Source: Thermoanaerobacter pseudethanolicus ATCC 33223 (lineage in GTDB: Bacteria; Bacillota; Thermoanaerobacteria; Thermoanaerobacterales; Thermoanaerobacteraceae). Taken from it: 64,000 bases of DNA. Under the pieces are notes generated by a model. That model searched no databases, was not told the DNA's origin, and saw only the letters and a program-made list of their open reading frames with translations. This document shows, in pieces, positions 38,250-56,367 of the stretch (positions are counted from its first letter, which is position 1; every line of letters begins with the position of its first letter). The position numbers and the translations under genes were made by a program. The stretch is from NCBI RefSeq assembly GCF_000019085.1, contig NC_010321.1, forward strand, positions 2,119,001 to 2,183,000, in the 5' to 3' direction.

Positions 38250-38678
38250 CTATCCTTCTTCAGTCATTATAAACATAAGCTCTGCAGTAGCTGCAACTTC
38301 ATCTCCAACTTTTGCAACACCTTTAGCTTTAACAAGCCCCATCTTTATAGAATCTATTAAAACTTCTAAAACAAGTTGGTCTCCCGGCCTTACTACTTTT
38401 TTGAAGCGGCACTTATCAATCCCTGTGAAAAGCCCTAATTTACCTTTGAATTCTTCTATATTCATAACAGCAATACCTGCTACTTGTGCCAATGCCTCAA
38501 CAATAAGAACTCCTGGCATTATAGGATTGTCTGGAAAATGCCCTTGAAAAAAAGGTTCATTAGCTGTCACATTTTTTATTCCAACAGCTTTTTTACCTTC
38601 TTCAATTTCTATTATTCTATCCACTAATAAAAAAGGATATCTATGAGGAAGAATTTTTCTTATGTCTTTATTTTCCAC
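38250..38678 (-). CDS. fabZ: (3R)-hydroxyacyl-ACP dehydratase
   Basis: This 142-residue hotdog-fold enzyme of fatty acid elongation has [13 protein letters not shown] near residue 10 and the catalytic His/Glu in [20 protein letters not shown] near residue 46-65. Length is normal. The start is GTG 38678 with only a weak SD. The right end of a TnpB element lies 17 bases upstream, so the native leader and promoter may have been replaced by insertion. In relatives fabZ follows the flagellar rod genes directly. Confidence 0.93.
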
Positions 38679-38694
38679 CCTATGTTTCAGCTCT

Positions 38695-38895
38695 GTAAAA
38701 CCTATAAAGATCTAAAATTATCTACAATATTTATAGGTTTTACTCATACACTCAAGCCTTTATGGCTTAGTGTACATAATGGCATCTCTCTACAATGCCA
38801 TACCGTGAGCCAACGGTACTTTTGTTCACTCCTTTCTTTAAGTCAAGCAACTAATTTCCCATATCGGAAATGTAGAGTAGTTACTTGACTTATTT
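38695..38895 (-). ncRNA. Structured right end of the TnpB element, putative omega RNA
   Basis: Read on the minus strand from inside the tnpB 3' end, five hairpins follow one another: AAGTCAAG/CTTGACTT with an inner GGAAAT stem (38840-38891), ACCGTtggctcACGGT, ATGGCAT/ATGCCAT, ACACTaAGCC/GGCTtGAGTGT, and a last perfect 14-bp stem (38695-38708 with 38730-38743). This dense folding at and beyond the tnpB 3' end is what is known for TnpB guide RNAs. The exact 3' boundary and guide are not determined. Confidence 0.5.
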
Positions 38896-45064: not shown

Positions 45065-45102
45065 TATACAAAAAATACAGCACTTTATCAGTGCTGTATT
45101 TT
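45065..45102 (-). terminator. Terminator of spoIID
   Basis: AAAATACAGCACT/AGTGCTGTATTTT with a T run on the minus strand. The spoIID stop (45088) lies in the loop side of the hairpin. Confidence 0.85.
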
Positions 45103-46131
45103 CAATAAATCTTCAATTTTTACTATTTCTATCCCTGTATAATAATATTTCAATATTTCGTCAAACTTTTTCCCTTGTTTCGCCATTGCATTTGCTCCAT
45201 ATTGACTCATTCCCACTCCGTGACCATAACCTATGACGGTTATTACAATGTTATTTCCTTGTGCCTCAAAGCTAAAATTTGTAGAATTTAAATCAAAAAT
45301 TTCTTTTATATCTTTACCATTAAAAGTTATATTCCCTATTTTTAAAGTTTTAACGTGCCCAACTTGTGTTCTTTCTACATCTTTTATTTGAGTTAAAATA
45401 TTGCTATTATCCAATTTCAAAGAAGGCTCTTTTTGCTTTAATTTATTTATAAATTCTTCTTTTGACACTATAACAGTAGTTTTATATTTTGATGCTACCT
45501 CTTCTCCAGGAGAAACCACACTTCTTAAATAAGGAATTTTACTCTGCCATACGTCCTCAGAATTCTCTGTTTTCCCTCCACTTATAGCATGATAAGCTGG
45601 CACAATTAAAGCATCATCGTACACTAAGACAAGTCCTCTTGTATCTTCTACTGCTTGAGATATTTTGGCATAGTATTTATCAAAATTTTCTCCCCATTTT
45701 TGCCTCAACTCCCCCTCAGATTGCCATGCTTGGCAATGTTCAGAATCGGCGCACACATCAGCTCCTGGATGTAATTCGCAACCCTTTCCTCCCAAAGCTA
45801 TTTCCTTTGAGAGAGCATAAGTCCTCGCTGCAACAGCTTGTGCCTTTAAAGCTTCCATTTCAAACTCCGCAGGCATTTCTGCAGCAACTACTCCTTTTAC
45901 GTATTCCTCTAAATCCATTTTTTGTATTTTGTTTTGGTTTGTTATAAAAACATTTATAGTTTTGTAATTACTTGTGTCCTCTAATTTTACTAATTTCCCG
46001 TTATCCACTAATTTTATTTCTTGGGAAGGTACAGAAAAAGTTTTATGAAAATTAAAGCCAAACACTATTATAGATGGCAAAATTATCAAACTAAAAAATA
46101 TTGTGAAAACTCCATAAGCAACATATCTCAT
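45088..46131 (-). CDS. spoIID: Stage II sporulation protein D, peptidoglycan lytic transglycosylase
   Basis: This 347-residue protein has an N-terminal membrane anchor (residues 5-27) and the SpoIID domain: EYVKGVVAAEMPAEFEMEALKAQAVAARTYA with the catalytic Glu near residue 85, the CELHPGADVCADSEHCQAW insert, and the C-terminal GYGHGVGMSQYGANAMAKQGK. It cleaves septal glycan strands during engulfment together with SpoIIP and SpoIIM. ATG 46131 follows GGAGGGGG. A sigma-E-like promoter lies about 35 bases upstream. Confidence 0.94.
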   Translation of the reverse strand: MRYVAYGVFTIFFSLIILPSIIVFGFNFHKTFSVPSQEIKLVDNGKLVKLEDTSNYKTINVFITNQNKIQKMDLEEYVKGVVAAEMPAEFEMEALKAQAVAARTYALSKEIALGGKGCELHPGADVCADSEHCQAWQSEGELRQKWGENFDKYYAKISQAVEDTRGLVLVYDDALIVPAYHAISGGKTENSEDVWQSKIPYLRSVVSPGEEVASKYKTTVIVSKEEFINKLKQKEPSLKLDNSNILTQIKDVERTQVGHVKTLKIGNITFNGKDIKEIFDLNSTNFSFEAQGNNIVITVIGYGHGVGMSQYGANAMAKQGKKFDEILKYYYTGIEIVKIEDLLKIQH

Positions 46132-46204: not shown

Positions 46205-46243
46205 CAAAATAACAATTAAAATAGTGGGAAAAGTTCCCACTAT
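46205..46243 (-). terminator. Hairpin upstream of spoIID
   Basis: ATAGTGGGAA pairs perfectly with TTCCCACTAT (46221-46243, 3-base loop). On the minus strand it is followed by TTTTAATTGTTATTTT, so it can end transcripts coming from the right. Confidence 0.6.
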
Positions 46244-46311: not shown

Positions 46312-46406
46312 TAAAACAAAAAAACAGCTGCTTTAAAGCAGCCTACATTGGGTTGGGGGTGCAGAATATATTAAATTTTATGGGGAAAAGGGGAATCATT
46401 CTTACA
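46312..46406 (-). ncRNA. Candidate short C-rich RNA between the PEP-binding gene and spoIID
   Basis: A -10 TATAAT (46413-46418) with TTTAAA 17 bases upstream would start a transcript near 46406. It contains CCCCTTTTCCCC and CCCCCAACCC and ends at a perfect 8-bp hairpin (46327-46342) followed by TGTTTTTTTG. No ORF is present. C-runs complementary to SD sequences are typical of Firmicute regulatory RNAs; expression is not shown. Confidence 0.4.
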
Positions 46407-46496
46407 GTTTAAATTATATTACATTATTTTGGCGCTTTAAATAGGACTTAAGTCTCATTTTTTGTTATTTTTATATCTTTTTATACATAAATCGAC

Positions 46497-56228: not shown

Positions 56229-56367
56229 ACAAAAAAATTCGCTCGAAGGTAGGAGGACCATCGAGCGAATAAAGCGTCCTCTATAGAGGACAGCTGGGGG
56301 GCAATGTTAAATTGTATGTATTTTGTCACATACTGCTATTTCTTAGTTTAACTTAATAAAGTGTTTT
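56229..56367 (-). ncRNA. Candidate leader or small RNA upstream of the ZIP gene
   Basis: A perfect promoter (56374-56402) would start a transcript near 56367. It contains ATTGCCCCCCAGC and a 16-base palindrome GTCCTCTATAGAGGAC (56277-56292). It ends at a 10-bp hairpin (56237-56246 with 56261-56270) followed by seven T at 56231-56237. The loop of this terminator contains GTCCTC, complementary to the second arm GAGGAC of the palindrome, so alternative pairing is possible. It may be an independent RNA or a termination-controlled leader of the ZIP gene starting 68 bases later. Confidence 0.55.

Follow-up and report, generated by a model that had tools for sequence, protein, structure and literature searches.

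A conserved C-rich small RNA gene confined to one family of thermophilic anaerobes

Anatomy of the RNA gene and its surroundings

We analyzed a window of 64,000 nucleotides from the genome of Thermoanaerobacter pseudethanolicus ATCC 33223, which consists of a single contig of 2,362,816 bases (window G000:C1:2119001-2183000; positions below are those of the window unless a contig or locus is named). On its minus strand, the window contains a gene for a small RNA (sRNA) of ~88 nt that is preceded by a gene for a protein with a PPDK_N domain and followed by spoIID (45088-46131), with which it is co-directional. The features assigned to the gene are, in the direction of transcription:

46442..46457, minus strand: palindrome TGAGACTTAAGTCCTA, a candidate regulator site, the downstream half of which reaches the -35 hexamer
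46436..46441, minus strand: -35 hexamer TTTAAA
46413..46418, minus strand: -10 hexamer TATAAT, 17 bases from the -35 hexamer, at an identical offset in 18 of 19 copies
46318..46406, minus strand: sRNA gene, ~88 nt, with a predicted start at 46406-46405 and the end of the T-run at 46318
46378..46405, minus strand: invariant block 1, GUAAGAAUGAUUCCCCUUUUCCCCAUAA, 28 nt, beginning at the predicted start and the same in 19/19 copies
46393-46382, minus strand: CCCCUUUUCCCC within block 1, predicted to lie in the loop of a 5' hairpin
46370..46377, minus strand: variable spacer (alignment columns 35-42, 8 columns), 19.6% identity between the copies of genus g1 and the other copies
46350..46369, minus strand: invariant block 2, AUAUUCUGCACCCCCAACCC, 20 nt, the same in 19/19 copies, its 5' part closing the hairpin
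46359-46350, minus strand: C-rich run CCCCCAACCC, predicted to be unpaired in the Thermoanaerobacter copies
46318..46343, minus strand: intrinsic terminator, with a 7-pair stem at 46343-46326 and seven T at 46324-46318

Seven bases intervene between the -10 hexamer and block 1, which is where a transcript is expected to start, and the C-rich run in block 1 reads CCCCTTTTCCCC (46393-46382, minus strand). A preliminary description of the locus had proposed a compact promoter-to-terminator unit with two C-rich runs; such a unit is present, ~88 nt in length on the minus strand, and is conserved in 19 copies. It is important to note that this conservation, and not the counting of motifs, establishes its reality: promoter-like motifs in the region were not above chance (6 compared with a shuffle mean of 8.3) and terminator-like motifs were weakly above it (3 compared with a shuffle mean of 1.0). 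On the basis of the comparisons between genomes described below, we conclude that the sRNA unit is real.

Two other elements were seen in the window. A second terminator-like hairpin, ATAGTGGGAACTTTTCCCACTAT (46221-46243, minus strand), with CCTCCTC just before it, lies between the sRNA and spoIID and was not seen in nine aligned relatives. A malK-I RNA (RF03069) was found at 38676-38895 on the minus strand with 61.8 bits (gathering score 60.3).

Conservation of the RNA, its promoter and its neighbours

The sRNA locus is present in 10/10 genomes of the genus, our own genome included, with 89-100% identity. An order-wide search gave a match in 20 of 24 genomes, from which 19 copies were kept after removal of the match in G010, a stretch of 29 bases without the RNA architecture. 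A covariance model built from the 19 copies (R1) matches the window at 46411-46318 with 118.3 bits and finds the sRNA in 19 of the 20 genomes of the family, the one without it (G017) being 89% complete and in about 610 contigs. None of 17 other genomes of the class matched the model, and among 398 genomes drawn from the phylum there were eight matches, seven of them to members of the family; the eighth (G202, 30 bits) is without both C-rich motifs and was dismissed as chance-like. Pattern matching gave 11 loci, at eight of which the covariance model confirmed the sRNA, and on this list the named carriers include Thermoanaerobacter wiegelii, T. thermocopriae, Caldanaerobacter subterraneus, Thermoanaerobacterium butyriciformans and Thermoanaerobacterium saccharolyticum; in the pattern matches from Streptomyces, a Desulfobacca MAG and an Akkermansia MAG, the model found no sRNA. 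Plasmid and phage records contained no match. Elsewhere in the genome there are 27-bp matches to the sRNA, one of them at a locus (L014) the start of which presumably resembles mobile-element sequence. Rfam 15 has no family that reaches threshold at the sRNA locus, the core strings of the sRNA occurred in the openly licensed literature only in two papers, unrelated to it by title and abstract, and the listings of openly licensed literature on sRNAs of Thermoanaerobacter and Thermoanaerobacterium included nothing about this sRNA. We conclude that the sRNA is a real, hitherto uncatalogued family that is confined to one bacterial family and belongs to a known type of RNA.

In the alignment of the 19 copies, columns 7-34 and 43-62 are invariant (48 positions). 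Block 1 shows 100% identity between the genus copies and the others, as compared with 50.9% for the six bases that precede it (ten genus copies against the other nine), and the terminator region (columns 63-90) shows 61.5% identity between genera; in the full-length copies that were folded, a terminator-type hairpin and a T-run are nevertheless retained despite the change in sequence. Because the invariant blocks flank a spacer of such low identity, the constraint acts on the RNA sequence. In the predicted consensus fold, UGUA-GAAUG pairs with UAUUCUGCA, placing CCCCUUUUCCCC in the loop and leaving CCCCCAACCC unpaired. All but one of the nine hairpin pairs never vary and, therefore, covariation speaks neither for nor against the hairpin. 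Several g3 copies depart from the consensus in their minimum-energy folds, and the alternatives seen in some copies include a hairpin of GCACC with GGUGU, the loop of which contains the second C-rich run.

The unit had also been described as containing no ORF. Strictly, this does not hold, as there is an ATG frame of 18 codons, the ATG of which corresponds to bases 7-9 of invariant block 1; what holds is that the frame is not conserved. Because the ATG opens a frame in 19/19 copies, we considered that the sRNA might be the mRNA for a short peptide (MIPLFPI...), a reading that we find scarcely credible. The length of the frame ranges from 8 to 58 codons depending on the species, with small deletions shifting the frame, and from this inconstancy across the 19 copies we conclude that there is no conserved protein gene and ruled out a peptide gene. 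Moreover, the first codons are fixed at every base, third positions included, and no Shine-Dalgarno (SD)-like sequence precedes the ATG.

The placement of the unit upstream of spoIID is correct for the genome in which it was described and for two further genomes (G008 and G012, in addition to G000), but most relatives have another gene at this place: the unit is followed by the gene for a different secreted-type protein in the other genomes of the genus and in the g3 loci that were read. On the upstream side, members of the genus have the PPDK_N gene, whereas g3 and G012 have other, small genes there. Because both neighbours vary, spoIID is no constant partner of the sRNA, and because the upstream gene changes between genera, the sRNA is not simply the 3' end of a single mRNA. 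These observations also bear on the idea that the sRNA acts in cis as a leader of the downstream gene, either an attenuator or a riboswitch-like element whose expression platform would be the terminator. Its position upstream of and co-directional with spoIID and the intrinsic terminator at its end would fit such a leader, as would a weak preQ1-II-like match, which, however, is on the other strand and reaches 19 bits compared with a gathering score of 47. Nevertheless, with a downstream gene that is not constant, folds that show no antiterminator alternative and no Rfam riboswitch at threshold at the locus, we regard a leader as quite unlikely.

Judged by its sequence, the promoter (TTTAAA-17-TATAAT) is of the housekeeping type. 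The palindrome half CCTATTTA and TATAAT lie at identical offsets, with the 17-base spacer, in 18 of the 19 copies, and in the nineteenth (G012) the promoter is severed by an insertion sequence. AGACTTAAGTCCTATTT is found exactly at the sRNA in nine of the ten genus genomes and with one mismatch in the tenth, and without mismatch it is found nowhere else in these ten genomes. In some species the palindrome core changes in matching halves (e.g. GGTCTTAAGACC compared with AGGACTAAAGTCCT), which is the behaviour of an operator. The rigid position of the palindrome upstream of the promoter suggests that a regulator may act here; the palindrome bears, as far as we can judge, no resemblance to a Fur box. 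A relaxed form of the palindrome gave 10 sites in the genome compared with 6 for the reversed control, and none of the six of these 10 sites that were inspected is an obvious promoter site; when a stricter form was searched for and up to two mismatches were allowed, each genome had 3 to 8 matches in forward and 3 to 8 in reverse orientation, compared with 0 to 5 for the controls.

In G012, a gene with a transposase domain (DDE, 578 aa, PF01609) interrupts the sRNA gene (L071:1454-3485), and a 30-base exact direct repeat comprising the promoter end and the 5' end of the sRNA is present on both sides of the insertion. Because promoter and RNA body are thereby separated by two kilobases, the sRNA gene is either dispensable in G012 or otherwise driven. 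We note that a repeat of 30 bases is unusually long for a target duplication. The comparison of genomes strongly supports the view that the gene specifies a C-rich RNA that is compact, non-coding and transcribed independently.

Relation to other C-rich RNAs

The sRNA has at least two C-rich runs that lie in predicted unpaired regions and are invariant in 19/19 copies, and it has, by sequence, its own promoter and intrinsic terminator, as do members of the class of C-rich sRNAs of Firmicutes that pair with SD sequences. We compared it with individual C-rich RNAs. One candidate was CsfG, the sporulation-specific C-rich RNA of the forespore, known from Bacillus and other endospore formers; the ylbH leader of Rfam represents its antisense strand (PMC3574147). 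The ylbH leader model (RF00516) aligns over its full length with the plus strand at 46316-46407, both RNAs contain a UUUCCCCA stretch and C/U-rich conserved unpaired stretches, and the sRNA adjoins a sporulation gene in its own species. Still, the model reaches only 12.4 bits at this locus (gathering score 50; genome-wide E 4.73), and a far better candidate is found at C1:1338738-1338858 with 41.5 bits, itself below the gathering score of 50. CsfG has a counterpart in 24/24 genomes of the order (in 1/24 above the Rfam cut-off), and the counterparts have a nearly invariant C/U-rich core (15 of 25 loci aligned) that differs in sequence from the sRNA blocks; this core, CTTCCTTCAATTTCTCCTCTCCCA, is absent from the sRNA. 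The CsfG locus adjoins rsmD in our own genome and is separate from the sRNA locus; we take its neighbours to be rsmD and coaD, with genes for small acid-soluble spore proteins near. With the sRNA promoter, moreover, of the housekeeping type by sequence, it is very improbable that the sRNA is CsfG or a paralogue, and the weak RF00516 score, the separate CsfG locus and the different core led us to rule out this identity.

The preliminary description had also suggested kinship with a second RNA of the window, at 56229-56367. This RNA, likewise on the minus strand, is conserved in 19/24 genomes of the order. Within it, GCCCCCCAGCUGUCCUC is invariant, and the loop of its terminator, UGG[U/A]CCUCCUACC, always shows CCUCCU, an anti-SD-like sequence; in six of the stem pairs, both partners differ between species groups (alignment of 15 of the 19 copies, leaving out L087 and L092 as mis-anchored and L086 and L099 as near-duplicates). 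The AATTTAA that the two RNAs have in common lies in the variable spacer of the sRNA and is missing or different in the relatives of the other RNA. Because the common element lies in variable parts of both RNAs, the suggested kinship is not supported. The two RNAs are alike in kind, and the only common feature that remains in their sequences is a run of C.

Rfam contains an RsaE model, and neither RoxS/RsaE (hits up to E 10) nor FsrA is among the Rfam hits listed for the sRNA locus. RoxS/RsaE are described in PMC4409812 as pairing with SD sequences through several C-rich regions, among which is a CCCCUUU motif, and multiple C-rich regions are what these RNAs and the sRNA have in common; in contrast, the sRNA lacks the duplicated CCCCUUUGUU found in RoxS, and it is confined to a bacterial family different from those of RoxS/RsaE (Bacillus, Staphylococcus). 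FsrA of Bacillus is described in the same source as having three C-rich regions, with a short distance between two of them; it resembles the sRNA in its multiple C-rich regions and differs in that Fur control was not seen for the sRNA. PMC9410917 describes IsrR of Staphylococcus as an RNA of 174 nt with single-stranded C-rich regions, stems of conserved sequence with little covariation, and regulator sites at its promoter, namely Fur boxes inside the promoter and immediately downstream, and as conserved within one genus. In its C-rich regions, its stems and the presence of regulator sites at the promoter, IsrR resembles the sRNA as predicted. On this description, IsrR is longer than the sRNA, the regulator site of which would be a different palindrome located upstream of the -35 hexamer.

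Proposed mode of action

We propose that the product of the gene is probably a small regulatory RNA of ~88 nt that stands alone and acts in trans, and that its C-rich runs would pair with SD regions. As read from the promoter and terminator, RNA polymerase carrying the housekeeping sigma factor would initiate at 46406-46405 and end at the intrinsic terminator. The transcript is predicted to begin with a 5' hairpin exposing CCCCUUUUCCCC, followed by a single-stranded linker that contains CCCCCAACCC and then by the terminator hairpin. By analogy with RoxS/RsaE and IsrR, the exposed C-rich segments would pair with the G-rich SD regions of several mRNAs and thereby block translation, and Hfq, a gene for which is present in the genome (117.7 bits), would perhaps assist this pairing as suggested by the same RNAs. 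The sRNA may be turned on or off by a transcription factor that recognises the palindrome immediately upstream of the -35 hexamer.

We evaluated pairing at 436 gene starts that a simple script identified in 464 kb (~20% of the genome). For the loop segment of block 1, the mean was -9.80 kcal/mol at these starts as compared with -7.69 in coding regions, and the corresponding values for shuffled RNA were -9.93 kcal/mol and -7.51; the preference for start regions is thus equalled by a shuffled C-rich RNA, and this test does not separate the sRNA from shuffles. The best single matches were attained by 19/100 (block 1) and 9/100 (block 2) dinucleotide shuffles. The best match of block 1 is to the start of what we take to be a gene for an S1-domain-like protein, and because shuffles reach the best scores, this gene start is only a lead. 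The spoIID start pairs with block 1 at -15.6 kcal/mol, which is unremarkable. Because pairing was no better than for shuffles, we infer the mechanism from architecture and analogy; judged in this way, trans-acting pairing with SD sequences, as first suggested in the preliminary description, is plausible, while target prediction at the 436 starts did not add to it.

The same result would also fit an sRNA that acted via an RNA-binding protein, by titrating it or being bound by it, rather than by pairing with mRNA. Such action would also account for the 48 invariant positions, which include the stem and exceed what a short SD seed needs. Given, however, that we recognised no known protein-binding repeat and that the architecture matches that of known base-pairing C-rich RNAs, we consider action through a protein unlikely, and SD pairing remains our working hypothesis. 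A more far-reaching reading, which we offer tentatively and regard as rather doubtful, is that the sRNA is a family-wide master riboregulator, frozen over nearly its whole length by many mRNAs or by a dedicated protein, controlled by an uncharacterised regulator, and one of at least three C-rich RNAs. On this reading, essentially all bases except those of the short spacer and the terminator would be frozen for that reason, the palindromic operator would be nearly private to the sRNA, and the sRNA, the RNA at 56229-56367 and CsfG would be separate C-rich RNAs of the same cells.

The genera with identical pairing blocks and divergent spacer and terminator provide a natural contrast, and the fixed palindrome at the promoter provides a handle on the controlling signal. 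Most work on C-rich sRNAs that pair with SD sequences concerns Bacillus and Staphylococcus. The principle of SD pairing would be extended to this family and to growth at high temperature by a near-frozen C-rich sRNA in thermophilic anaerobes that are used in work on biofuels.
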